Shown here in pieces: positions 4,202-18,770 of a stretch of 48,284 bases of DNA (the stretch's first letter is position 1; every line of letters starts with the position of its first letter). A program made the position numbers and the translations under genes. The notes under the pieces were generated by a model, which did not search any database, had not been told where the DNA came from, and was given only the letters and a program-made list of their open reading frames with translations. This stretch comes from Solobacterium sp. (GTDB taxonomy: Bacteria > Bacillota_I > Bacilli_A > Erysipelotrichales > Erysipelotrichaceae): contig JAFWCM010000103.1 of NCBI GenBank assembly GCA_017536885.1, positions 1-48,284 on the forward strand, in the 5' to 3' direction.

Positions 4202-4315
4202 ATGGGGAATAACATTATCTGGCTGGTAATAATGATACCTGTCAGTCTGATATTTACAGGCCTTGGCATCTACGCATGGAGACGAAAACAGCCAATAGCC
4301 GAAGCGTTTTTCTGA
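4202..4315 (+). pseudogene. Possible truncated small membrane protein
   Basis: A 37-codon frame begins after GGGAG and encodes a single hydrophobic helix ending in YAWRRK. This resembles the first part of longer clostridial membrane proteins that continue for about 100 more residues. Here it stops at TGA (4313-4315), and I find no continuation in other frames, so it may be a remnant. The surrounding gap (3961-4413) shows nothing else that I can support. Confidence 0.25.
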
Positions 4316-4413
4316 TGAAAACTCTGAAATAAATTTTTCAAAAACTCTGAACTCGAACGGTGCGGAGTTTATAATTGGCAAAACTGAACAGAGCACAGAT
4401 ACGCAAATAATGA

Positions 4414-4452
4414 ACCGCATGACGCTTTCGGTGAAGCTAAGCGTCATGCGGT
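4414..4452 (-). terminator. Strong hairpin at the 3' end of the acyltransferase gene
   Basis: A perfect 14-bp stem (ACCGCATGACGCTT with AAGCGTCATGCGGT) with an 11-base loop lies 14 bases beyond the stop at 4467. The U-tract on the minus strand is weak (TCATTATTT), so it may end transcription inefficiently or only protect the 3' end. Confidence 0.6.
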
Positions 4453-4466
4453 CTGCACTTCATTGG

Positions 4467-5775
4467 TTACTTTGCGGTGGCAGCGGAATCGGGATAAATT
4501 CCGTCATAAGTCATGATTCCAAGATCTGTAATTCTGCTGGAAACACCTTGTTCTTTCATGACCGCCTGAATATTCTCTGCAATCGCAGGATTATCGAAAC
4601 ACATAGTCGCTCCGATCGTCAAAAGATCTCCGGTGGTAAGCGTGGAGAAATTCACGGGGGTTTCAAAGGAGGGCAGGGAAAGATCAACGGTAATCAGGTG
4701 CGCGTAAATATCCTTCGGAAGCTTCAGCACACCGACATTGGTAAGAAGGAACGCCATTGCCTGACGGTTCTTTTTTTTTCTCGGCCATCTTTCTTTCCTC
4801 AGAATCAAATACCTCTTCAAAGGACATCTTCCGATACTCCTGTACTTCACGCCTTTTTTTACGGATCGTTTTTACCGCGGCTTCCGGTGTATTTCCGTTT
4901 CTCAACTGTGCCTCAATCTGCTGTGCTTCCACCGCAAAAGGGGCAGCTCTCAGCTGAGAAGGAATGCCGAGCGTAACATATCCGGAAAAATTGAACATCG
5001 TATCCGACTGCGCGAACGGTCTGATATTTGCAGTAACGACCGCGAGCATCAGTTTGTCTGCGGTATCATAGGTTTTCTCAAGCGCTTTGGCAACCACTGC
5101 CGTAAGCCATGCGCTGACCGCGGTACCGGCACGCTGCGCCGCCGCCTTCGCATCTTTGGAAGAACAGGATACCTTGAAGCTGCGGCAGGAGTAATTTCCC
5201 GCTTCATCCCAGCAGGTTTCCGGAAGGGCAAAAGGAACAATCTTTCCGATGTCGCCCGCCGGTTCTTCAGGAATGGAACAGTCCGCAAACCGCTCTGCGG
5301 TTTCCTCCAGTTCCGCTTCCGCATCATATGGAATCTCATTGGTGCGGACAATTCCTTCCGGATCCACCGTCACACCGGTTTCCTTCAGATAGTAATACAG
5401 CAGTGTCTTAACAAATTCCATCACTCCCCGGCCATCGGTAATCGAGTGATGCAGGGAAAGAACAATCGCATTGTCACGGAAGGAAATCCGGAACAGATAT
5501 CCGTTGGTTTCCTCACTGCCAAGATGATACTGATTCCCTTCCTGCAGACTGAATACCGGCGCCGGACGTTTGTTTTCTTCGTATTCAAATCCATCACTCG
5601 TCCAGACTAACCGCATTGCAAATGCAGGATACCGCTTCATCGTCTGTTCTGCTGCGCGGATCAGAGCGATTTCTTCTATCGGTTCCTTCATTTCCATCTG
5701 TACATGCAGGATCGTGGAGTTCTCCTTATTCCCGTGTACAAAATGGGAGTAATTGGTTAATGTGATATGTTTCAT
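4467..5775 (-). pseudogene. Condensation-like acyltransferase, frameshifted at an A9 tract
   Basis: Belongs to the CoA-dependent acyltransferase/condensation-domain superfamily (alcohol acetyltransferase-like, COG4908 type). A canonical HHSITDG motif (HHxxxDG) sits at about residues 109-115, with a typical N-terminal half. The frame breaks in a run of nine A on the coding strand (plus-strand T run 4771-4779). Removing one A joins the N-terminal part (5775 to about 4779) to the C-terminal part (about 4770 to 4467) and gives exactly 435 residues. The two paralogues in the nearby operon have 434 and 435. The start at 5775 follows AGGAGGAAGT. Possible explanations are a recent mutation, a slippage or phase-variable tract, or a sequencing error. 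It lies about 2.8 kb past the end of the operon holding its paralogues, in a separate transcript on the same strand. Confidence 0.8.
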
Positions 5776-6257
5776 ACTTCCTCCTGGCATTTTCGGCTAA
5801 TTCTACCATATTCATGCATGCATTTCCCAGCTTTTCTTTCCGAAGCAATGTTTACGCATGCATCTCAGAGTGTTTTGAGCTCTGCGTTTTCCCGTATACA
5901 AATATGGTGTTTACGTGCATACTTTGGCCATGAAGCGCACAGATGCTGATCCGGAACGGTCAAAGAAGGATCGGGAAAAAGGAAGAACTCTCGAAAGGTC
6001 CGTGTCATCTATGGCCTGTATGGGAAGAAACAGACCTGTACCGATCACAGTGACTGGACTGCAGTACCTATCCGGTCTGAATACAGCCAGCAGGAATACA
6101 TAAAAAATGAACTCGGATTCCACCTTCTGCAATAGGGCAGGGGCTGTGTTCTCTTCGTCTGACGAGAACATAATCCGCAATTGTTTTTGTGGATGTGTTT
6201 TTACAGATTGGGTATTTCCAGAACACAATCTTTGGTAAAATCTTTTTAGCTATAAAA
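5776..6257. other. Gene-free gap with decayed minus-strand coding traces
   Basis: No intact gene is supported. The left edge carries the acyltransferase promoter region and two copies of a GCATGCAT-type palindrome (near 5814 and 5855). From about 6105 to 6180 the sequence resembles 16290-16370, the coding body of the minus-strand gene beside the second repeat. This stretch is therefore probably the dead remainder of its paralogue. Confidence 0.5.
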
Positions 6258-6478
6258 TCGTAATTTGCACAGGAGACCTAAACTTTCTTATTTTTTGCGC
6301 TGTTATTTGATGTGAGCACGTCATTTTGCACCCGCTGCATGATAGAAACAACAAATATTAAGATGATATTAACGTAATTCAAACCACGCAATTATTCGCA
6401 AAAAACGTCAGCAATCCTGTTAGCACTGTCCTCCGACGAGAGGGGTTATTGAGGACTCGTATGCAAATGAATACTTTT
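6258..6478. repeat. 221-bp duplicated segment, copy 1
   Basis: This segment aligns without gaps to 16386-16606, with about 20 mismatches by my count (roughly 91% identity). It lies 53 bases upstream of CPBP gene 1. On the minus strand it holds a promoter-like region and the first 20 codons of a small gene (start at 6340) that begins MQRVQNDVL. In this copy a TAG at 6278-6280 stops the frame, where the other copy has CAG. A 48-base stretch inside that N-terminal region is identical in both copies. Confidence 0.85.
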
Positions 6479-6531
6479 AGCTGTTATACATATCGAGCAG
6501 GGGAAATCCCTGCTGGCTAAAGGAGGTAGAA

Positions 6532-7392
6532 ATGAAAGAGAAAAAACAACGAAGCCACATAATAACAGAGAAAGTTCCTGTTCTCGCCATTGCGTTCTGG
6601 ATCCTTTTTGCTTTTGTGCTGGAAATAATCATGGGGGAGCTGTTCAAATCAATCTTTCCGTCCGACGGAACGAAAATGGGAATCGAAATGATCAGTAATA
6701 CTTCCTCGCTCTGCATGTCGATCCTGCTAATGATTCTTATGAAAGTCTGGTATTCGCCGCAGTATCAGGGAACGCTGAAATCCGGTTTGCCGCTTAAGCT
6801 GACCCTTTTGGTCATGGTGCCGATGGTCATCAAGAGTGTTGTTGTCCTGGTTATTCAGCTGTTCCAGTACAGCTTCTGGTTCGATCCGTCTTTTTTCAAT
6901 ATCATAAAGGCGCTGGCTGCTGGATTCTGGGAAGAATGCGTATTTCGTCTGACTGTAATTCCGATCGCGATGGGATTCATCAAAACGGAAAAGAAGATCT
7001 GGCTTGTGCCCGTCATCTCCGGACTGATATTCGGAATTATGCATATGGTGAATATCAAAGGCGGCGCATCCGTATCCAACACCCTGATCCAGGCGCTTGT
7101 GACCTCCCTGGACGGCTTCTTCTACGGCGCATTGTTTGTCGTTACGGGTTCGGCTTTTCCTGGCATCATTCTGCATTCGGCTTATGATTTCATCTGCTTT
7201 GCCGGAGACAAAAGCCTTACGAACGGAATCATGACCACGAACCTTCAGACATGGGAAATCATCTTCAACATTGTGCTTTCCCTGATTGTCTGCGCAGGCG
7301 GTGTCCGGATTATCAGGAAAGTCGGCAATAACAAAATCCTCTCGGTGTGGAGGAAAAAATGGAGTCAGAAAGCAGACGCCATTCAGGGTTAA
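6532..7392 (+). CDS. CPBP family intramembrane metalloprotease (copy 1)
   Basis: A 286-residue multi-pass membrane protein of the CPBP (CAAX protease / bacteriocin-processing) family. All three signature motifs are present: EECVFR (Glu134, Glu135, Arg139), FGIMH (Phe167, His171) and HSAYD (His215, Asp219). About seven or eight hydrophobic segments are visible. The start follows a perfect AAAGGAGGT. A small hairpin (AGCAGGG/CCCTGCT, 6496-6514) ends six bases before that site and might influence translation. Members in Firmicutes often give immunity to, or process, small peptides; such peptides occur in this window, but a link is only inferred. A close paralogue of equal length lies at 17910-18770. 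Confidence 0.92.
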   Translation: MKEKKQRSHIITEKVPVLAIAFWILFAFVLEIIMGELFKSIFPSDGTKMGIEMISNTSSLCMSILLMILMKVWYSPQYQGTLKSGLPLKLTLLVMVPMVIKSVVVLVIQLFQYSFWFDPSFFNIIKALAAGFWEECVFRLTVIPIAMGFIKTEKKIWLVPVISGLIFGIMHMVNIKGGASVSNTLIQALVTSLDGFFYGALFVVTGSAFPGIILHSAYDFICFAGDKSLTNGIMTTNLQTWEIIFNIVLSLIVCAGGVRIIRKVGNNKILSVWRKKWSQKADAIQG

Positions 7393-7507
7393 ATGTGAGG
7401 TTCTGCCGGTTCTCTCATTAAACGTGAAAACAGCGCCCATAACGGATCCGTCGTTTCTTGATTGCATGGCACTGTGATGCTATTATTCTGACAGGGGATT
7501 TAACTAT

Positions 7508-8257
7508 ATGGATTATCTTGTAGCTGTATTAACACTTCTGATTCTTGCGTATCTTTACTGGCGTATGATCAAACGGGAGATTCCCGATCCGATCAAACCG
7601 TTCCAGGCTATCCTGCCGTTTGCGTTCGGCATTCTTTCGATGATTATTTACGGCCCGTTTATGATCTGGTTCATAAAGAACATCGCGCCGAAAATCGCCT
7701 CTATGGAAAGCGTTCCTCCCTTTTTCCGCGGCATGTTCAGAGCCTTCCTTATGGCTGGTTTCCCGGAAGAAGTGCTGAAACTGATCTTCATTCTCATTAC
7801 CCTTGCTGTGCTGCGCTCAAAGGTTCGGAATGTTTATGAATATATCCTGATCGGTGCGGCGGTCGGCGCTGGCTTTACTGTTGCGGAAGAGTGGCTGTAT
7901 GCAGACAAATTCCAGATAGCCACCTTTGTCATGCGCACTCTGAGCGTGGCGGCGCATATGTCATTCAATATGGTCATGGCCGAATATCTGGGACGTGCCC
8001 GTGTGGCTGAACTGACGGGGAAAGGATCTCCTGTAAAACTGACAATTCTTGCTTTTGTGATTCCCTGCCTCATCCATACGCTCTATGATACCTGCACAAC
8101 CGGAAACGCTCTCCTTATGGAGAAGTCAACGCAGGTCGTCGGTGCAATTCTCGGCTTCTGTGCTTATATTTTTCTGATTGTTTTCCAGATTTATGTTCTC
8201 ATTCGCTTCAAAAAGAAAACCAGAGAATTCTGTGAGATGAGCGTGCAGCCGAAATAA
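7508..8257 (+). CDS. PrsW-family intramembrane protease homologue
   Basis: A 249-residue membrane protein. It has PEEVLK (Glu87, Glu88, Lys91), AEEW (Glu127, Glu128), His150 in a following helix and HTLYD near the C-terminus, the arrangement of PrsW-like glutamic/metallo intramembrane proteases. PrsW of Bacillus subtilis cleaves the anti-sigma factor RsiW; the substrate here is unknown. It lies 115 bases after the CPBP gene on the same strand with only a GGGGAT site, so it could be co-transcribed or have its own promoter. A terminator follows. Confidence 0.85.
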   Translation: MDYLVAVLTLLILAYLYWRMIKREIPDPIKPFQAILPFAFGILSMIIYGPFMIWFIKNIAPKIASMESVPPFFRGMFRAFLMAGFPEEVLKLIFILITLAVLRSKVRNVYEYILIGAAVGAGFTVAEEWLYADKFQIATFVMRTLSVAAHMSFNMVMAEYLGRARVAELTGKGSPVKLTILAFVIPCLIHTLYDTCTTGNALLMEKSTQVVGAILGFCAYIFLIVFQIYVLIRFKKKTREFCEMSVQPK

Positions 8258-8266
8258 GTCAGAAAC

Positions 8267-8305
8267 AGCCCGGTTTATCAGGTTCGGAAACTCCGGGTTT
8301 TTTTT
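8267..8305 (+). terminator. Rho-independent terminator after the PrsW-like gene
   Basis: A CCCGG...CCGGG stem, extended by weaker pairs, is followed by eight T residues about ten bases past the stop codon. Confidence 0.7.
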
Positions 8306-8452
8306 AACCGGTTCTGACAGGCAGATGAGTAATTGTCATCCGCTCGGAAATCATCCTTGTCCGATCAGCCGGCTGTTCCGGATGAAATCGTGATGCATTG
8401 CAAAGATTCAATCAAAAGGGGAAGTGAGAATAAAATGCATTCTCGGGGCATG

Positions 8453-8483
8453 AAAAAATGCGGGATCAGTATAATCTCCCGCA
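8453..8483 (-). terminator. Terminator of the partner-switching/acyltransferase operon
   Basis: On the minus strand TGCGGGA pairs with TCCCGCA around an 11-base loop, followed by TTTTTT. Between it and the STAS stop codon lie two more hairpins: TCTCTGTTC/GAACAGAGA near 8546-8572, and a GC-rich stem near 8517-8534. The transcript therefore has a heavily structured 3' end. The rest of 8306-8575 shows no gene. Confidence 0.85.
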
Positions 8484-8575
8484 GAATCAAACCCGTTCAG
8501 AAAAGGGGTCTCCTTTGTCCCCGGCTGCCGGGACGGTGTTTCCTGTCTCTCTGTTCAAAGAGGAACAGAGAACCC

Positions 8576-8872
8576 TTACGAAATATCCATGGAATCGGCG
8601 AATCCGGTCGCTTCAAATACCTCCATGACCATTTCATTGACATTGATTACCTTCATACCGCCTTTTTTGATCATCACCTTATAGGCGGAGAGGATGACAC
8701 GCAGACCTGCGGAAGAAATATAGTCAAGGTCCTTGAAATCAAAGGTCAGCGTTTCCGCTTCGTCATAGACGCTTTTCACTGCATCTTCCAGCTGTTTTGC
8801 GGTAGAGGTATCGACCTTGCCCTCCACGGCAAGGGTGATGTTTTTTCCATCCTTGATTATGTTGATCTTCAT
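8576..8872 (-). CDS. STAS-domain anti-sigma factor antagonist
   Basis: A 98-residue single STAS domain, like SpoIIAA/RsbV. In partner switching the unphosphorylated antagonist binds the kinase-type anti-sigma factor and releases its target. The phosphorylation loop reads YISSAGL; Ser54 aligns with the phosphorylated Ser of RsbV and SpoIIAA. The start follows AAGGAGA. It is the last gene of the minus-strand operon, 84 bases after the SpoIIE-type phosphatase, which is the expected enzyme to dephosphorylate it. The likely kinase partner is the HATPase domain fused to the adenylating enzyme at the head of the operon. Confidence 0.93.
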   Translation of the reverse strand: MKINIIKDGKNITLAVEGKVDTSTAKQLEDAVKSVYDEAETLTFDFKDLDYISSAGLRVILSAYKVMIKKGGMKVINVNEMVMEVFEATGFADSMDIS

Positions 8873-8956
8873 CGACTCTTCTCCTTATCTGTCTTTATTA
8901 TAATCGGTGCATTGCCCTTTCTGTTCTTTCATTTGTCAGCGGGAAGGGCAGATCGT

Positions 8957-10453
8957 TCAGCTTTGCTTCTGGATTTCTTCCACCGGACCGCGATAGCATA
9001 CGGCAAGCATCGTCGTATCATCGAACTGCGGTGCGTCTTTGACAAATTCCGCAATCGCCTGGCTGACATTGTCTATGAGTTCCTTTGCGGAACCGTCCGG
9101 ATTTCGATTCAGAGCTTCCACCAGCCGCTCTGTTCCGAACTGCTCTTCCTCGACATTATTCGCTTCGAGAACTCCGTCGGTATAGACATAGACCGCATCT
9201 CCCGGGTTCAGCGGGATGTCATAGGTGCGGTAACGGCTTCCGTACAGCCCGCCCAGCACCATTCCGTGCCTGTCCTTCATCCGCGTAAATCCGGAGCCCT
9301 TATGCATGACGCAGGGCCACTCATGACCGGCATTGGCGGCTTTGATCAGTCCGGTGCGGACATCCAGAATCCCGAGCCATACCGTCACAAACATCTCGGC
9401 CGGGTTGTTGGAGACAATCTGGTTGTTGGAGACCTCGAGGATCTTCCCAGGCTCTTCATACCCGAGCTTTGAAACATTGTTGATGATGATTTTGGAAGCC
9501 ATCATGAACATTGCGGCGGGAATGCCCTTGTCAGAGACATCCGCTACCAGCATCGCCAGATGATCCTCATCGATCATGAAGAAATCATAGAAGTCACCGC
9601 CCACTTCCTTGGCCGGAGACATGCTTGCATAGATATCGAATTCCTCCCGTTCGGGAAATGCCGGAAACAGGTTCGGCAGGACATTCGCCTGAATATCCCG
9701 GGCGAGGTCGAGCTCCGTCGAAAGGCGTTCCGTCTTTGCGGTCTCTGCCTTCTGATCCAGTATGGCCTGTCTTCCCCGGCGGGCGATTTCCGTACAGATA
9801 ATGGCAATCATGACAAAGAGAATCGTCCGGGGCAGAAAATCATGGCGCAGGGTATGGAGCCAGAGCTGGTTATAGTCAATCGCATCGAGCGGAACCGCAT
9901 CTCTTAACAGCATATCTCCCGGAAAGGTAAGCACCGTTCCGCCCGGCAGAGAAACCATGTTGAGGTTCAGCCGGCCAAGACCTCTCGCAACGCCGAAATA
10001 CTCCGCAAAGCCTGAAAGAAACAGGGTCAGAGCAGCGGTCATTGAAGTCAGATACCGGGAATAATAGCGGATGGAAAGCACCACAGGGAAAGCCAGGCAA
10101 AGAACGACATTATGGCCGAGCGTCATTTCAATCCTGGCTAACACGATGGTGTAACAGGCTATCAGAAGGATCTTGAGCCACTTTTTCTTTCCCTTGAAGT
10201 GATAGCAAAGCAGAGCGGGAATCACCAGTTCCAGAAATGCCATCCCCAGAGTCATAATCATGGTATTTTTGCGGATCGTAAACACCCCAAACACTGACAG
10301 CACCAGAAACAGGAGATCCAGCACTGCGGTGTACATCATTATTTTTGCGACATAGAGGTTGGAACTGACTTCGTTGTTCCAAAGCGTCTCCGTTGTATCG
10401 AGAAATTCTTCCCGGAGCCGCTGCGCCCAGGTAACTCTCTTCTTTTTTGTCAT
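8957..10453 (-). CDS. Membrane SpoIIE-family (PP2C) serine phosphatase
   Basis: A 498-residue protein. The N-terminal half has about six hydrophobic segments (residues 35-220), followed by a short helical linker (about 225-258) and a PP2C/SpoIIE catalytic domain. Metal-binding motifs are EVGGDFYD (283-290), DVSDKG (305-310), YTDGVLEA and QFDDTTM near the end. Such enzymes dephosphorylate STAS antagonists; a membrane sensor half suggests control by an external or membrane signal. It lies 24 bases after an acyltransferase gene and 84 before the STAS gene. The N-terminal membrane region matches no named sensor domain that I recognise. Confidence 0.92.
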   Translation of the reverse strand: MTKKKRVTWAQRLREEFLDTTETLWNNEVSSNLYVAKIMMYTAVLDLLFLVLSVFGVFTIRKNTMIMTLGMAFLELVIPALLCYHFKGKKKWLKILLIACYTIVLARIEMTLGHNVVLCLAFPVVLSIRYYSRYLTSMTAALTLFLSGFAEYFGVARGLGRLNLNMVSLPGGTVLTFPGDMLLRDAVPLDAIDYNQLWLHTLRHDFLPRTILFVMIAIICTEIARRGRQAILDQKAETAKTERLSTELDLARDIQANVLPNLFPAFPEREEFDIYASMSPAKEVGGDFYDFFMIDEDHLAMLVADVSDKGIPAAMFMMASKIIINNVSKLGYEEPGKILEVSNNQIVSNNPAEMFVTVWLGILDVRTGLIKAANAGHEWPCVMHKGSGFTRMKDRHGMVLGGLYGSRYRTYDIPLNPGDAVYVYTDGVLEANNVEEEQFGTERLVEALNRNPDGSAKELIDNVSQAIAEFVKDAPQFDDTTMLAVCYRGPVEEIQKQS

Positions 10454-10477
10454 ATCCTTCCTTTCCGGCTGTTCTTT

Positions 10478-11782
10478 TTACTTCTGCTCTTTCGGCAGTT
10501 CTACCTGCGGATTCAGGTAGGTATCCCTGGGAAGCGTTTCATAGGGGATTTTGTTGTCATCGAGAACCTGCAGGAAATTCCGGAAGTAGCAGTCCGAGTC
10601 GAAGGTCTGGTTGAAATTGATATGGAAATACCCGGCGGTTTCCGACAACACGACAAACATTGCTCCATGGGAGGGATCCGGGTTGAGATAGCGAACTTCC
10701 GTGATCTGATCGGAATAGTCATTGGTGCGAAGACTGCCCACATAGTCAATGAAGAAGGTATCCTGGGGCCGGTTCTCCGGCATTGCCATGAGTTTGTTCT
10801 TCAGGAAGAAAAACGGAAGCTTCTTTCCGAGATGAACAACCATATTGATCGAAGAGGAAAGAAGCAGTGCCATTTCCTCATTCATCTGTTTCTTCATGTC
10901 ACCGCGCAGTTTTGCGGAAAGCTCTCCGATCGTTAATTCCGCGCATTCTCTGGGGAATACCGGGAGGTAAATCGCCGCCGCGGTGTTCTTGAAGGTGTTG
11001 TCCGCATGAAGATATTTGCGGAGGGAGAAGGGAAGCACCGCCATGATGACTCCCTCTTTCACATGGTTCTGCTTTTCGACGGCAGCGGCGGTCATTGCGG
11101 AAATCGCCGCCGCGGGAGAGGCACCCTGTTCCTTGCACCAGGAGAGGAAATCCGAGGTTTTGATCTTCAGCGGGATCCGGTAGATCAGCGGTCCTTTCCC
11201 GGTTGTAAGCTCGGGAAGCCGGAAGCGTTTCTCGCTGTTGGCCAGCTTCCTCAGTTCTTTGGTATCAACATTGGTCTTTACCTCAAATGCGTCAGCGGTT
11301 TCCGTGGGGTCATACGGGGTTTCCAGAGTATAAATGCCTTCTGAATTGTAGGTTTTCCCATCCTTGAAACAGCAGTAGTAATACAGCGTTGTTTCGATGA
11401 AGCGGTTCAGCCCGAGGCCGTCGCAGAGCCCGTGAAACATCGCAAAGCTGATCTTGTTGCCGGTGTATGTCACATCCAGCATGTGATAGTTAGTGGTTTC
11501 GCCGCCGATCGTGCGGGGATTCTCTGACTCTGCCGCAAGAAGGGGAAGATCATTGTCCGCATAGTAATAAAGTCCCTTCTTCCTGACAAAGGTGGATTTG
11601 TAATACGGCATTCTCTGTACCGCGTTGTCCATGGCTTTCTGAAGCAGATCTCCTCTTACAGGTTCACTCATAAAGACTTCTACGATAAAGGTGCGTGGTT
11701 TTTCTGATCCATAGAACTGAAATGCACCTCCGGCATTCCATTCTTTTGCTGTGAACCTGGGGGTGTTTCTGTTTCCTGTCAT
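10478..11782 (-). CDS. Condensation-like acyltransferase (paralogue A)
   Basis: A 434-residue protein of the CoA-dependent acyltransferase/condensation superfamily. The active-site motif reads FHGLCDG (His117, Asp121). The general-base His and the Asp-Gly are kept, while the first His of HHxxxDG is Phe. A GGETTNYHMLDVT stretch just upstream is shared with the next paralogue, and the C-terminal half has the second lobe (DYVGSLRTNDYSDQIT). Family members transfer acyl groups from CoA or a carrier to an alcohol or amine; no carrier protein is encoded nearby. It sits 19 bases after paralogue B and 24 before the phosphatase, so it is clearly in the operon. The substrate is unknown. Confidence 0.85.
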   Translation of the reverse strand: MTGNRNTPRFTAKEWNAGGAFQFYGSEKPRTFIVEVFMSEPVRGDLLQKAMDNAVQRMPYYKSTFVRKKGLYYYADNDLPLLAAESENPRTIGGETTNYHMLDVTYTGNKISFAMFHGLCDGLGLNRFIETTLYYYCCFKDGKTYNSEGIYTLETPYDPTETADAFEVKTNVDTKELRKLANSEKRFRLPELTTGKGPLIYRIPLKIKTSDFLSWCKEQGASPAAAISAMTAAAVEKQNHVKEGVIMAVLPFSLRKYLHADNTFKNTAAAIYLPVFPRECAELTIGELSAKLRGDMKKQMNEEMALLLSSSINMVVHLGKKLPFFFLKNKLMAMPENRPQDTFFIDYVGSLRTNDYSDQITEVRYLNPDPSHGAMFVVLSETAGYFHINFNQTFDSDCYFRNFLQVLDDNKIPYETLPRDTYLNPQVELPKEQK

Positions 11783-11801
11783 GTTTTTCTCCTTTTATAT
11801 T

Positions 11802-13109
11802 TTAAAGATCCATCGAATCCCGCCACTCTGTCATCGGCAGTGAGAACTGCCGAATGGGACCGCGTTCACTCTTCAGGCCGTGCTCTTCCATCACGGCAGG
11901 GATCGCATCTGCATAGACGCTCACATCGTCACAGGCAAGGCAGTGAATCTGGAACATGCCGTTGTTTTCGATGAGATTCAGCTGCAGGGTTTTCCCAAGC
12001 GGCGGCTTGCAGAGAAAGTGAATGCCGGTGATCTGATCGGAATAGCCGGTTTTATGGAAGGAACCGATATAGTCGGTATAGAACGTATCGTGATTCATGG
12101 TCATCATACCGCTGCCGGCTCTGGCAATCTGCCAGTAATCTCCGGGGCCCTGAAAGCGCTCAATTGATTTCGGCGTGACCACGTAGTTGTACGCCGTCCG
12201 CAGGATATTCGGATTCAGATGCAGTTTCAGCACATTCCGCAAGGCGGCGGCTTTCTGTTCAAAGGGCATCGCATCCATCGGGGTTCCGGTAAGGGGAAGC
12301 ACCACCCGGCTGGAACAGTTCTTGAAGGTTTCCTCACAATCCAGCATTCTGCGGCCGGAGAGGGGGATAATCGCCTCAATCGGAGCATCGGCTTCCGGAT
12401 GAACCCGCAGGATTGCTTCTGAGACGAACAGTGAAATCAGAACGGCGGGAGAAGTGTGCAGGCTCTTGGCAAACGGAATCAGATCCTGTGAGCGGATGTT
12501 GATACCGTAGTCAAAGATGATATCCGCGTTTTTGCCGGTGCACTCGGGAAGATGGTACGGCAGTGTTTCGCTGCGTTTCGGCATCTTAAACTCCGGGTCG
12601 ATCTCATAGGGGATCCCGATGGGGTCCTTCTCCTCCTCCGGTTTCATCTCTTCCTGATCGGTGCGGATGCCGTTTGGTTCATAGTCAATGCCGTCTTTCA
12701 GGCAGTAATAGTGATACAGAACGGATTCGATAAAGAAGTTGAGTCCCTGGCCGTCGCAGAAGCCATGGAACATCGCAAACCAGGTCGTATGGTCAGACCA
12801 TGTGACATCAAGCATATGGTAATTGGTGGTTTCGCCGCCGATCCGGCGCAGACCGGGATAATGTGCAGCTTCCATCGGCAGCGGGTTTTCCGCATACCAG
12901 AATTGTTTTCCCTCCGCCTCAAAGGTATCGCTCATGTAGGGCATGCGCTTCAGGGTTCTGTTGACTGCCTGCTGAAGCAGTTCGCCGTTTACGGGATCGC
13001 GGTGGGTCACCTCGACCGCATAGGAACAAATCTGCCCGGGGAGAAAGAGATAAGGGGAAGCAGAGTATGCCAGTTCTTTCTTTCTGAACTGAGGCCGTTT
13101 TTCTTTCAT
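11802..13109 (-). CDS. Condensation-like acyltransferase (paralogue B)
   Basis: A 435-residue paralogue of the next gene. The motif is FHGFCDG (His115, Asp119), again with Phe in place of the first His. GGETTNYHMLDVT and the second-lobe DYIGSFHKTGYSDQIT are shared. Its ATG overlaps the stop of the adenylating enzyme by four bases (ATGA), so translation is probably coupled and the two proteins are made in similar amounts. This supports a two-step route in which the ligase activates an acid and the acyltransferase passes it on. The presence of two diverged copies suggests a heterodimer or two acceptors; both ideas are inference. Confidence 0.85.
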   Translation of the reverse strand: MKEKRPQFRKKELAYSASPYLFLPGQICSYAVEVTHRDPVNGELLQQAVNRTLKRMPYMSDTFEAEGKQFWYAENPLPMEAAHYPGLRRIGGETTNYHMLDVTWSDHTTWFAMFHGFCDGQGLNFFIESVLYHYYCLKDGIDYEPNGIRTDQEEMKPEEEKDPIGIPYEIDPEFKMPKRSETLPYHLPECTGKNADIIFDYGINIRSQDLIPFAKSLHTSPAVLISLFVSEAILRVHPEADAPIEAIIPLSGRRMLDCEETFKNCSSRVVLPLTGTPMDAMPFEQKAAALRNVLKLHLNPNILRTAYNYVVTPKSIERFQGPGDYWQIARAGSGMMTMNHDTFYTDYIGSFHKTGYSDQITGIHFLCKPPLGKTLQLNLIENNGMFQIHCLACDDVSVYADAIPAVMEEHGLKSERGPIRQFSLPMTEWRDSMDL

Positions 13110-15106
13110 GCGAGATCCTCCCTGTTGGTAAAAAGAAATTCTTCAATACTGAAATCATTGTCGTACAGGAAATCCATACAGTAGACCGGCTTGCCTTCCG
13201 GATAGTCGGTATGGAAATCGCTGACCGCCTTTAAGATGATCCTTGCGCTCATCGAGGTATCGCGGCGTTTGTCGATGAAATACTCTGTGCCGTGATCGCT
13301 GAAGGAAATCCGCAGCCATTCCGGCATCAGGGTGATCTTCATCCGAATCTCGCCGGAGGCGGAATAGGCATCCATGATCCGCTCGGTTAACATCTCCTCC
13401 ACCGCCAGCTGCATCTGCATTGCCCGCTTGGGGCTGAAGCCCACCGTATCGGCAAGATTGTTTACCATGGTGGTGACGGGGACAATCGCATAGCTGCTGT
13501 TCTTGACCTTCACATCGAACACGGTGACACCGCCCGAAAGCTCTTCACTGACGGCAATCCGCTTCAGCCTGCTAAGCATGTCTACTCTCAGCGTGCGCTG
13601 ATCGAGCTTTCCGTTCACATTCAGGGGAAAGCTGTCATAGAGAAAAATGTGGGAGGGAATCTTGAACCTTGCGACAAGACTCCGAAGACTCTCCTTCATG
13701 GCCGATGGATCAAAGGGGGCGTTTTTGTTGTGCAGGGTGACGCAGGCTTCTACACTCTCTCCGTAAATCGGATGCGGAGCTCCCATGACTTTCACCTGGT
13801 TCACATTCTCCAGCTGGGAGAGGGCATTTTCGATCTCGGAAGGAGAGATGTTCTCGCCGCCGCGGATGATCACATCCTTGATCCGTCCGGAAAGATGGAG
13901 GTAATTGTCTTCATCAAAGTAGCCGAGATCGCCGGTATGAAGCCAGCCTTGCTCATCAATCGGCTGTTTCTCCCGGGGAAGGGCATAGTAGCCGTTCATG
14001 AGGTTGCCGCCTTTTGCGATGACCTCACCGATCTCATTGACCGGAAGGAAGCCGCCTTTTCCGTCAGAGATGCGGATGTCGAGACCGGAGACCGCCCGGC
14101 CTACCGTCTGGGCTCTTTTTTCGACAAGATCGGAAGGCCGCACCATGGTAAGCGGTGCAGCTTCACTCTGACCGTACATGTTGATAAATGTCGCATTGGC
14201 ATATTCCAGCTCCAGCCGCATCATCTGTACCGGGGTCGACATACCGCCGGCAATCATGCAGAGATGCAGGTAGGGAACCACACATTTCCTGAACTCCTTC
14301 GCTTCCGCAAGGGAGAGGTAGACCGCTCCGACCGCGGTCATATCCGAGATCCGGTACGCATCGATCTCGCGGATCAGAGTTTCCGGTTTGTAGTTGGCGG
14401 GCAGGCATACCGTGCATCCCCGGCAGAGCCATGTATAGCTCATCAGAAGACCGAGGATATGAAACAGCGGTACGGCTGTGCACAGACTGCGGCCGGCCTG
14501 CTCACCGAGGTTTTCAATCATCGCATCGGCGTCAAACGACAGCGCTTTCTGGGAGATCTCTACTGCCTTGGGCATGGATGTGGTGCCGGAGGTAAAGATG
14601 ATAAAAGCGGTTTCCCCGGCTTCTTCCTCGGTACGCATCTCGTTTTCCGAATGGAAGGAGCCATACTGACGGAAGAGATTGACCCGGTCGGAATGAATGC
14701 TCAGACAGTGCTCTTGTTCAATGCCGGCAAGTTCAGCCAGGTGTTCCATGGCCCTGGGATCTTTCTTTTCCACCGCAGTTTCGCCAGAAAGGAGAAATCT
14801 GGTATCTGACATCTTCAGCAGTTCGGCTGCCTCTTCCACACCGCTGCTGTAGTTCAGAAGCACGGCTACACCGCCGGCTCTTACAATCGAAAAAAAAGCG
14901 ATCAGCCAGTTGGCAGAGTTATAACCGAACAGTGCTACCCGGGTGCCTTTCTGCACACCGAGTTCCGAGAGCTTTCCGCTGAGTCCGGCAATCCCTTTAT
15001 GCATCTCTTCATAGGTGCATTGTCTGCCGTTTCCGACAACCGCCATTCTTCCCGGATATTCCCGGCTGAGACGATTTGAGAAAAGATAATTCCGACTTGT
15101 TTCCAT
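13106..15106 (-). CDS. ANL-superfamily acid:CoA/AMP ligase fused to an anti-sigma-type HATPase domain
   Basis: A 666-residue two-part protein. Residues 1-510 form an adenylating enzyme: TSGTTSMPK (172-180), YGQSE (311-315), TGDLG (391-395) and the A10 Lys in NVNGKLDQ (Lys500). Residues about 528-650 look like an RsbW/SpoIIAB HATPase. Its catalytic Glu is kept (Glu571), but the Mg-binding Asn of the N-box is Glu575. The G1 box reads DHGTEY (Asp604, Gly606). It may thus bind the STAS partner yet phosphorylate poorly. I choose the ATG at 15106; an upstream in-frame ATG at 15208 would add 34 residues that overlap an integrase relic and lack family similarity. It is the first gene of the operon. 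Confidence 0.88.
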   Translation of the reverse strand: METSRNYLFSNRLSREYPGRMAVVGNGRQCTYEEMHKGIAGLSGKLSELGVQKGTRVALFGYNSANWLIAFFSIVRAGGVAVLLNYSSGVEEAAELLKMSDTRFLLSGETAVEKKDPRAMEHLAELAGIEQEHCLSIHSDRVNLFRQYGSFHSENEMRTEEEAGETAFIIFTSGTTSMPKAVEISQKALSFDADAMIENLGEQAGRSLCTAVPLFHILGLLMSYTWLCRGCTVCLPANYKPETLIREIDAYRISDMTAVGAVYLSLAEAKEFRKCVVPYLHLCMIAGGMSTPVQMMRLELEYANATFINMYGQSEAAPLTMVRPSDLVEKRAQTVGRAVSGLDIRISDGKGGFLPVNEIGEVIAKGGNLMNGYYALPREKQPIDEQGWLHTGDLGYFDEDNYLHLSGRIKDVIIRGGENISPSEIENALSQLENVNQVKVMGAPHPIYGESVEACVTLHNKNAPFDPSAMKESLRSLVARFKIPSHIFLYDSFPLNVNGKLDQRTLRVDMLSRLKRIAVSEELSGGVTVFDVKVKNSSYAIVPVTTMVNNLADTVGFSPKRAMQMQLAVEEMLTERIMDAYSASGEIRMKITLMPEWLRISFSDHGTEYFIDKRRDTSMSARIILKAVSDFHTDYPEGKPVYCMDFLYDNDFSIEEFLFTNREDLA

Positions 15107-16793: not shown

Positions 16794-17684
16794 ATGATAG
16801 TAAGAAACTGGGATATGAAAAAGTTACGGGAGATAAGCATAGAAGGATGCCCTGAGATAGGACGAGGCGCACATGGAATCGTGTATCAGACCGCCCCGGA
16901 TATGCTGGTCAAGGTTTATAACGAAAATGCTTCCATTGATTCCATACAGAAGGAAAGAGAACTGGCGCGCTGGGCGTTTGTGAAAGGAATACCTACGGCA
17001 ATTCCCTTTGATATCGTGCGGGTCAATGATCGGTACGGAATTGTGTTTGAACTTCTGGAATCAAAATCCTCGGCTGATTATATCAGGGAATCACCGGAAC
17101 ATTTTGAGAGTTTCCTCAGAAAATCTGTAGATTTAATGAAGCAGATCCATGCGGTTACGGCAGAACCGGGTGATCTTCCGGATATGAAACAGCAGACATT
17201 GAGCTGGCTGCCGAAGGTTCATAAGTTCCTGCCTGACAATCTTTGTTCAAAACTGGATGCTTTCGTGAATACGATAAAGGATACGCAGACGATCATACAT
17301 GCGGATTTTCATATGAAGAATGTATTGATATGCGGTGATGAACTGATGCTCATTGACATGGATACACTGAGTACGGGCGATCCGATTTTTGAACTTGCGA
17401 CAGTGTTTGTATCCTATCGCGAGTTTCCTTCCATAGAGCCGAAAGCTGCGTATATGCTGGGAATCGACGTCGAAACAGCCGCAAAAATCTGCGATCGGAT
17501 TTTTGAACTGTATCTTGATGAGGCGGATGAGGAGACGCTTCGTGAGACAAAGGATAATGCACAGCTGCTGGGCTGTATCAGAATCATTGATTTTATGGAC
17601 CGGCATTCGGAACTTCCGGATCGAGAGAGGTGTGTTGACCGCTGTGTACAGGATATTACGGAACTCCTGCAGAAAAGAGCGTAG
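16794..17684 (+). CDS. APH/choline-kinase-like phosphotransferase (TIGR02172-type)
   Basis: A 296-residue protein with the aminoglycoside phosphotransferase kinase fold. It shows a Gly-rich loop GRGAHGIVY (near residue 24), an ATP-binding Lys in MLVKVY, the catalytic loop HADFHMKNVL (near residue 168) and LIDMDT as the metal-binding DFG equivalent. This resembles an uncharacterised Firmicute/Fibrobacter kinase family rather than true resistance enzymes, so the substrate is unknown. ATG 16794 follows a GGAG; a second ATG at 16815 is possible. It stands between the duplicated 221-bp element and the second CPBP gene and so may have been inserted there. Confidence 0.8.
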   Translation: MIVRNWDMKKLREISIEGCPEIGRGAHGIVYQTAPDMLVKVYNENASIDSIQKERELARWAFVKGIPTAIPFDIVRVNDRYGIVFELLESKSSADYIRESPEHFESFLRKSVDLMKQIHAVTAEPGDLPDMKQQTLSWLPKVHKFLPDNLCSKLDAFVNTIKDTQTIIHADFHMKNVLICGDELMLIDMDTLSTGDPIFELATVFVSYREFPSIEPKAAYMLGIDVETAAKICDRIFELYLDEADEETLRETKDNAQLLGCIRIIDFMDRHSELPDRERCVDRCVQDITELLQKRA

Positions 17685-17909: not shown

Positions 17910-18770
17910 ATGAAAGAGAAAAAGCAACGAAGCCATACGATTACAGAGAAAGCTCCTGTTCTCGCCATTGCGTTCTGGATTGTTTTTGCCTTTGTGCTGG
18001 AAATTGTCCTGGATGGTCTTTTTAAATCATTCTTTCCGTCCGACGGAACCAAAACGGGAATCGACATGATCGGTAATATTTCCTCGATCTCCATGGCGAT
18101 CCTGCTTATGATTCTTATGAAAGTCTGGTATTCGCCGCAGTATAAGGGAACACTGAAATCTGGTTTGACGCTTAAGCTGACCCTGCTGGTCATGGTACCG
18201 ATGATCATTAAGAGTGTTGTTGTTCTGGTTATTCAGCTGTTCCAGTTCAACTTCTGGTTTGATCCGTCTTTTTACAATATCGTAAAGGCGCTGGCCGCCG
18301 GATTCTGGGAAGAATGCGTATTTCGTGTGACTGTAATTCCGATCGCGATGGGATTCTTCAAAACGGAAAAGAAGATCTGGATTCTGCCCGCCGTCTCCGG
18401 ACTGATCTTCGGAATTATGCATATGGTGAATATCAAAGGCGGCGCCACCATAACTAACACCCTTACCCAGGCACTTGTGACCTCGCTGGACGGATTCTTC
18501 TACGGCGCACTGTTTGTCGTTACGGGTTCGGCCTTTCCCGGCATCATCATGCATTCGGTGTATGATTTCATCTGCTTTGCCGGAGACAAGAGCCTTACCG
18601 ACGGAATCATGACCACTTCTCTGCAGACATGGGAAATCATCTTCAACATTGTGCTTTCCCTGATCGTCTTTGCGGGCGGTGTCATGATAATAAAGAAAGT
18701 CGGCGATACCAGAATCCTCTCGGTGTGGAGGAAAAAATGGAGTCAGAAAGCAGCCGCGATTCAGGGGTAA
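17910..18770 (+). CDS. CPBP family intramembrane metalloprotease (copy 2)
   Basis: A 286-residue paralogue of 6532-7392 with the same length and no internal gaps. EECVFR, FGIMH and HSVYD are all kept. Differences are scattered and mostly conservative, mainly in the first membrane segments and the loop near GGATITNT, so both copies seem to be under selection. The start follows AAGGATG. It has its own strong promoter at 17837-17864. Substrate and role are unknown; family members can protect against or process small peptides. Confidence 0.92.
   Translation: MKEKKQRSHTITEKAPVLAIAFWIVFAFVLEIVLDGLFKSFFPSDGTKTGIDMIGNISSISMAILLMILMKVWYSPQYKGTLKSGLTLKLTLLVMVPMIIKSVVVLVIQLFQFNFWFDPSFYNIVKALAAGFWEECVFRVTVIPIAMGFFKTEKKIWILPAVSGLIFGIMHMVNIKGGATITNTLTQALVTSLDGFFYGALFVVTGSAFPGIIMHSVYDFICFAGDKSLTDGIMTTSLQTWEIIFNIVLSLIVFAGGVMIIKKVGDTRILSVWRKKWSQKAAAIQG

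Follow-up and report, generated by a model that had tools for sequence, protein, structure and literature searches.

A Solobacterium operon suggestive of partner switching with an adenylate-forming ligase as output

Partner switching is best known for releasing sigma factors. Switches that act on an enzyme have also been described, and in the portions of the reports consulted this enzyme is a diguanylate cyclase: it is the output of SiaABCD of Pseudomonas aeruginosa (PMC7278518, PMC8457831) and is controlled by a STAS protein in both HsbA-HsbD (PMC6482189) and BgrV-BgrR (PMC8457831). The same sources, as far as consulted, have HsbA acting on FlgM/FliA and RpoS as well (PMC6482189, PMC8457831). 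Since enzyme-output switching is already known, with diguanylate cyclases as the outputs in the literature found, the operon discussed here is a variant and not a new kind of system; the proposed ANL-ligase output would be the new part.

Like RsbU/RsbV/RsbW and SpoIIE/SpoIIAA/SpoIIAB, the operon combines a STAS protein carrying a conserved Ser, a PP2C/SpoIIE phosphatase, and an RsbW-like partner domain; unlike in those systems, the latter domain is degenerate and fused to an enzyme, and the genome contains no SigB/F/G-type sigma factor above cut-off. With SiaABCD the operon shares a membrane PP2C phosphatase and a one-operon layout, and the NCBIfam model nearest to its phosphatase is SiaA. In SiaABCD the phosphorylation of a STAS-like protein gates an enzyme, as is proposed here, but the Sia output is a diguanylate cyclase, SiaC is a DUF1987 protein, and SiaB is a separate active kinase. 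HsbR/HsbA/HsbD and BgrV/BgrR resemble the proposed arrangement in that a STAS protein controls an enzyme, but the consulted parts of their descriptions contain no fusion of a STAS or RsbW-like domain to an enzyme (PMC6482189, PMC8457831). By gene content and layout, the operon likewise encodes a phosphatase and a STAS-like protein together with an enzyme, which is an ANL ligase and not a diguanylate cyclase.

The operon lies within a 48,284-nt stretch of Solobacterium sp. DNA (the window). An ORF check places five minus-strand genes at positions 8576-15106, with the coordinates and strand originally predicted, and all five are real (Table 1). They form a tight co-directional cluster, with spacings from the ligase to the STAS gene of −4, 19, 24, and 84 nt and a purine-rich, SD-like stretch 5′ of every ATG (5/5). 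An Rfam search of the window returned no RNA element, and scans for promoter-like and terminator-like signals gave approximately the number expected from shuffled sequence and were left unused.

Table 1. Genes of the operon and the fusion proteins of its relatives
Feature	Coordinates	Strand	Evidence
ANL adenylate-forming ligase (residues ~1-515) with C-terminal degenerate RsbW-like HATPase (~516-666)	13106..15106, ATG at 15106	-	Pfam, motifs, PDB
C1, condensation-like HxxxDG acyltransferase	11802..13109	-	HGFCDG; 4-nt overlap of its start with the end of the ligase gene
C2, condensation-like HxxxDG acyltransferase	10478..11782	-	HGLCDG; weak model matches to condensation/BAHD folds
Membrane SpoIIE/PP2C-type phosphatase	8957..10453	-	Pfam SpoIIE 2.9e-44; hydrophobic segments; relative in L086
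Stand-alone STAS antagonist	8576..8872	-	Pfam STAS 2e-15; RsbV match; phospho-acceptor Ser in YISSAGLR
STAS-ANL fusion proteins: L069, L074, L086, L087, L098, L106, L110, L111, L289			

The ligase matches AMP-binding (7e-66) and AMP-binding_C (2e-10) and carries the ANL hallmarks, namely the P-loop TSGTT, YGxSE, GENIxP, and the C-terminal catalytic Lys; T172, G174, E315, G417-N419, and K500 are among the invariant columns of the ANL alignment. Its C-terminal region provides the weakest domain call, a HATPase_c_2 match of 24.1 bits (3.9e-5) against a cut-off of 27.4, which rises to 27.6 bits when the domain is taken together with its in-frame neighbours. The best PDB sequence match is RsbW of the RsbV/RsbW complex 6m36 (E 0.028), and a low-confidence model (mean pLDDT 47.6) retrieves RsbW first and SpoIIAB among the leading matches. 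The stand-alone STAS protein finds its best PDB match in RsbV of the same complex (6m36_B, 2e-10) and, with its phospho-acceptor Ser, is typical of a STAS antagonist.

C1 and C2 are 32-33% identical and share HGxCDG, with H117, D121, and G122 invariant among six relatives, and neither has a family match in Pfam, NCBIfam, PADLOC, or PHROGs. With regard to a chloramphenicol-acetyltransferase-like two-lobe fold, Foldseek comparison of a C2 model (mean pLDDT 51.6) with the PDB retrieves NRPS condensation domains and BAHD/TRI101 acyltransferases at an E of 4e-5 and a TM of ~0.3; this model and that of the HATPase are too weak to stand alone and were counted only for their consistent direction. The phosphatase, of the PP2C-type SpoIIE/RsbU group by its Pfam match, has a hydrophobic N-terminal half with segments within residues 42-224 and a catalytic domain at ~295-487, and a full-length relative (41%) occurs in L086.

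Among 316 genomes of the order and 395 of the class, only the Solobacterium sp. window genome has all five genes in this arrangement or an ANL ligase fused to a HATPase. Uniqueness to this genome, originally named as an outcome that would refute the proposal, thus applies to the exact gene set in the genomes searched, but not to the underlying coupling of STAS to ANL, which recurs. Nine genomes from five families encode related ANL ligases with an N-terminal STAS domain, and eight of these nine proteins group in a single clade (100/98) next to the one containing the operon ligase. Related ligases thus carry one or the other partner of a single switch, either STAS or an RsbW-like domain. The phospho-acceptor Ser is kept in every copy read. 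A SpoIIE relative adjoins the fusion gene in L069 and lies ~5 kb off in L086. These proteins differ from the operon ligase in carrying STAS at the N-terminus and in their usual neighbour, which, where the flank is readable, is a membrane Acyl_transf_3 and not a soluble condensation-like enzyme. Family f20, searched in the hope of further support, yielded counter-evidence: two STAS-ANL genomes, both drafts of 82-89% completeness, lack SpoIIE, and one of them also lacks a HATPase_c_2 match, while SpoIIE is present in four of five relatives that have no STAS-ANL. These two genomes count against a universal rule.

The congener G023 (~98% complete) carries a complete, self-contained STAS-ANL/SpoIIE/RsbW module. 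The genome has no STAS, SpoIIE, or intact RsbW other than those of this module, which are grouped on the same strand, with the STAS fused to the ANL ligase. Its SpoIIE is 57.5% identical to that of the operon over 252 aa. With a single copy each of STAS, SpoIIE, intact RsbW, and STAS-fused ligase, G023 offers a clean test case.

The operon could be a complete switch by itself, as originally predicted, if the ligase HATPase were a working kinase that phosphorylates STAS. The domain does retain the catalytic Glu and the G1 Asp, and the operon encodes no other kinase. Its ATP-binding positions, however, are degenerate, a feature the original prediction overlooked: the N-box has Glu in place of Asn, and the G2 box has lost its glycine-rich motif (GGLG). 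All stand-alone kinases compared retain the Asn and the glycines, and the operon encodes no RsbW/SpoIIAB-type kinase whose N, G1, and G2 boxes are all intact. An RsbW-like part is thus indeed attached to the enzyme, but its role as a working kinase is not supported and appears very unlikely. Judging from these motif losses, the domain is probably a pseudokinase that serves for docking. A second reading keeps the conventional logic: by way of a kinase encoded elsewhere in the genome, the operon STAS and SpoIIE would control a sigma factor or another transcription regulator, with ligase and acyltransferases merely co-transcribed. Intact RsbW-like kinases do exist elsewhere in the genome, the operon STAS is a stand-alone protein and resembles STAS genes that stand alone in other modules, and it sits 84 nt from SpoIIE. 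The resolution of a STAS tree was too weak to place the operon STAS. Against this reading, the five-gene cluster contains no sigma factor, as originally noted, and no SigB/F/G-type sigma factor, the one class searched, scores above the TIGR02980 cut-off in any of nine genomes scanned, the window genome included; that of B. subtilis, the positive control, was detected, and the strong sigma matches read in G000 and G023 are RpoD-type. Statements about the whole window genome rest on family searches. With the RsbW-like domain on the ligase itself, STAS-ANL fusions in relatives, and a ligase-fused STAS as the sole STAS of G023, control of a regulator elsewhere is rather improbable.

The added domains might instead be non-regulatory. 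The HATPase would then be a remnant or a structural/oligomerisation tail, as would STAS on the relatives' ANL, and the SpoIIE and STAS encoded near the ligase would serve other targets. The degeneracy of the HATPase, its single occurrence on an ANL ligase, and the f20 genomes that have STAS-ANL but no SpoIIE favour such a view; so severe a degeneracy may have cost STAS binding as well. This option is nonetheless unlikely in light of the retained phospho-acceptor Ser, the maintenance of STAS-ANL across five families (largely in one clade), and the complete adjacent module of G023. Given the recurrence of STAS-ANL in several families, the G023 module, and the absence of a SigB/F/G-type sigma factor above cut-off in the genomes scanned, the ligase is a more likely output than a sigma factor. 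The original proposal of an enzyme output is to that extent upheld, although it would probably not operate through an intact kinase on the ligase.

The preferred reading, with a probability of about 0.5, is a partner-switching module with an enzyme output that runs from SpoIIE through STAS to the RsbW-like domain of the ligase, with the kinase in trans. On a signal, the membrane phosphatase would dephosphorylate STAS at the Ser of YISSAGLR, and the dephosphorylated protein would dock on the C-terminal domain and alter, by activation or inhibition, either ligase activity or ligase assembly with C1 and C2. The ligase would produce an acyl-adenylate or acyl-CoA, and C1 and C2 would pass the putative acyl group to an alcohol or amine. 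Because the RsbW-like domain seems unable to bind ATP, re-phosphorylation of STAS would fall to an intact RsbW-type kinase elsewhere, for which C57 and C225 are the candidates. Counting against this reading, the window genome matches STAS seven times and SpoIIE eleven times, so that cross-talk or other targets are possible.

Other STAS fusions in the genomes examined involve APH-type, HAD, and methyltransferase enzymes. A broader and more tentative reading is an undescribed, widespread metabolic partner switching in uncultured Clostridia-like bacteria, in which STAS-enzyme fusions (ANL ligase, APH-type kinase, HAD phosphatase, methyltransferase) would replace the sigma outputs of SpoIIE/RsbW switches and the window variant would carry a pseudokinase RsbW docking site on the ligase. 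If true, the phosphorylation logic of partner switching would be re-used to gate metabolism directly, with no recognisable SigB/F/G sigma factor, and a degenerate RsbW domain would be kept in a pseudokinase role.

Across the phylum, the search was run at an extremely stringent threshold (1e-90) and does not measure STAS-ANL frequency. A contig profile search with an 11-sequence ANL alignment was dominated by generic ANL enzymes, with STAS at 0 of 80 loci among the matches listed. ANL proteins of 823-870 aa in the genus were set aside as switch-linked candidates, the loci read containing no STAS, SpoIIE, or C1/C2 relative. At one locus among the matches listed, a SpoIIE gene converges on an unrelated ANL gene, an arrangement treated as coincidence.

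The five minus-strand genes exist with the predicted makeup: an ANL ligase whose C-terminus carries a HATPase-like domain, followed by two HxxxDG acyltransferases (C1 and C2), a SpoIIE phosphatase, and STAS. The intergenic gaps are −4, 19, 24, and 84 nt, and each ATG is preceded by an SD-like sequence. Pfam matches are strong for the ligase (7e-66), SpoIIE (3e-44), and STAS (2e-15) and weak for the HATPase (3.9e-5, 24.1 bits vs a cut-off of 27.4). The catalytic motifs of the ligase are intact, down to the C-terminal Lys (K500). The contig (C284, 48 kb) belongs to a 3.4 Mb draft genome of 316 contigs (~95% complete) with seven STAS and eleven SpoIIE matches, and specificity of the switch is therefore not to be assumed.

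The original prediction treated the HATPase as the kinase-like part of a partner switch. The RsbW-type relationship holds, the nearest solved structures being RsbW and SpoIIAB (by sequence and a weak model), but the ATP-binding set does not. The domain was aligned with five stand-alone RsbW-type kinases, one SpoIIE-fused kinase domain, and two MatE-fused HATPases. The catalytic Glu and the G1 Asp are still present in it, but it carries Glu in place of the N-box Asn and is devoid of the kinases' IGGLG motif. The best reading from sequence is that of a degenerate RsbW domain, possibly able to bind STAS but probably not ATP. Intact RsbW-like kinases occur elsewhere in the window genome, on contigs C57 and C225. 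The genome also encodes a MATE-type transporter whose C-terminal HATPase_c_2 domain has Asp at the N-box Asn; a related fusion is present at locus L200.

A search for conserved co-occurrence of the five genes had been proposed as a check; the exact set was not found elsewhere, whereas a ligase with N-terminal STAS (STAS-ANL) recurs. A ligase search returned no second HATPase-ANL protein among 60 genus genomes, 316 from the order, and a sample of 395 from the class; the window version occurs once, and the genome that carries it is a draft. STAS-ANL occurs within the family in G023, of the window's genus, and in G313, G299, and G314, of another genus, as well as in other families of the class (G566, G536, G594, G490, and G788). 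A tree built from 34 ANL cores places all eight STAS-ANL proteins included in a single clade (100/98); the adjoining clade joins the window ligase and its C212 paralogue to unfused ligases of another family, and the two clades are jointly separated from other ANL cores (100/99), with finer branching order unsure because of long branches. The usual neighbour of STAS-ANL and of its unfused relatives is an Acyl_transf_3 membrane acyltransferase. This suggests a role for these ligases in supplying acyl transfer, the step that C1 and C2 would carry out in the window.

Features in the window and at related loci
Feature	Location	Coordinates	Strand
Third HxxxDG acyltransferase	window	4684-5790	minus
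Paralogue of the third acyltransferase	window genome, L068	2849-4153	
Rce1-like (CAAX protease) gene	window	6532-7392	plus
Five-gene cluster	window	8576-15106	minus
APH-type phosphotransferase, divergent from the operon	window	16794-17684	plus
Rce1-like (CAAX protease) gene	window	17910-18770	plus
MATE-type transporter with HATPase_c_2	window genome, contig C1 (L096)	4218-6005	
STAS-HAD hydrolase fusion, SpoIIE, and intact RsbW, adjoining	window genome, contig C57 (L094)	5527-8773	
STAS-APH fusion	window genome, contig C53 (L236)	1468-2658	
Methyltransferase-STAS fusion	window genome, contig C261 (L237)	523-1770	
823-aa ANL protein, one of a common type in the genus, beside an HMGL-like/LeuA_dimer gene	L091	8219-12135	

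The best supported reading runs from the phosphatase through STAS to the ligase via its degenerate RsbW domain, with a kinase in trans. SpoIIE would set the phosphorylation state of STAS, which would act on the ligase by predicted docking to this domain, activating or inhibiting it, and so gate how much activated acid reaches C1 and C2 for a putative acyl product; a putative kinase in trans would reset STAS. The main argument is comparative: related ligases are fused to STAS in relatives and to an RsbW-like domain in the window. All STAS-ANL copies read retain the [STA]SxG serine. G023 (~98% complete) is the clearest case, with an Acyl_transf_3-like gene, STAS-ANL, a LytS-like histidine kinase, a SpoIIE phosphatase, and an intact RsbW on one strand of contig C38. 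The catalytic part of this SpoIIE is 57.5% identical to that of the window, and the RsbW start overlaps the phosphatase stop. Whole-genome family searches of G023 gave a single match each for STAS, SpoIIE, and intact RsbW-type kinase, all on C38, the remaining HATPase_c_2 matches being weak and within longer frames. At L086, a phosphatase ~5 kb from STAS-ANL is 41% identical to the window SpoIIE over 479 residues, including the membrane part. Counter-evidence comes from family f20, where SpoIIE matches are absent from both genomes with STAS-ANL (loci L111 and L289), which are 82% and 89% complete drafts, and one of the two, G594, also lacks any HATPase_c_2 match; four of five f20 relatives devoid of STAS-ANL have SpoIIE. 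Either genes are missing from the drafts, or another phosphatase serves, or STAS on ANL can function independently of a SpoIIE/RsbW switch.

The proposal that the output is the ligase rather than a sigma factor agrees with the sigma scan, which was confined to the SigBFG model (other classes may be present): none of nine genomes, the window's included, exceeded the cut-off, while one control genome passed. The two strong matches read in each of the window genome and G023 are RpoD-type. STAS is also joined to other enzymes in these genomes, 19 of 28 matches lying in longer frames and nine standing alone. The longer frames comprise eight ANL, six APH-type kinase, three HAD phosphatase, one methyltransferase, and one similar 416-aa (putative) frame, some of these assignments resting on sequence similarity and not on Pfam. 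The ANL count is biased, eight of the nine genomes having been picked for holding STAS-ANL; excluding ANL, 11 of 20 lie in longer frames. The STAS-HAD, SpoIIE, and RsbW trio on C57 is apparently another enzyme-output switch.

Partner switches with enzyme outputs, as proposed here, are already known: dephosphorylated SiaC activates the diguanylate cyclase SiaD (PMC7278518), HsbA acts on HsbD (PMC6482189), and BgrV acts on BgrR (PMC8457831). A review names several STAS proteins whose non-canonical targets are yet to be identified (PMC8256260). Searches of open-licence papers yielded no described system that links STAS or RsbW to an adenylate-forming, acyl-CoA, or HAD enzyme, which is weak evidence that an acyl-activating switch of this kind is novel.

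C1 and C2 matched no curated family (Pfam, NCBIfam, PADLOC, and PHROGs). HxxxDG is common to both, to three paralogues in the window genome, and to one protein from a different genus. The PDB matches of a low-confidence C2 model include NRPS condensation domains and TRI101/BAHD acyltransferases. Apart from paralogues in the window genome, a C1 search gave only weak relatives in the family. Compared with its L068 paralogue, the third acyltransferase gene of the window has a reading frame that is interrupted near the 3′ end; the remainder matches the paralogue in another frame, reflecting either gene decay or an assembly error.

The window APH shares 34-40% identity with the APH portion of STAS-APH fusions from the window genome and relatives. 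A recurrent layout in relatives places a single protein with SpoIIE and RsbW domains beside a STAS-APH gene (L198 in G299:C23, L194 in G490:C17, and L197 in G536:C104), with a stand-alone STAS gene there too in G299 and G536. The two Rce1-like genes flank the operon ~11 kb apart; their products are 85% identical, and the pair is a local duplication.
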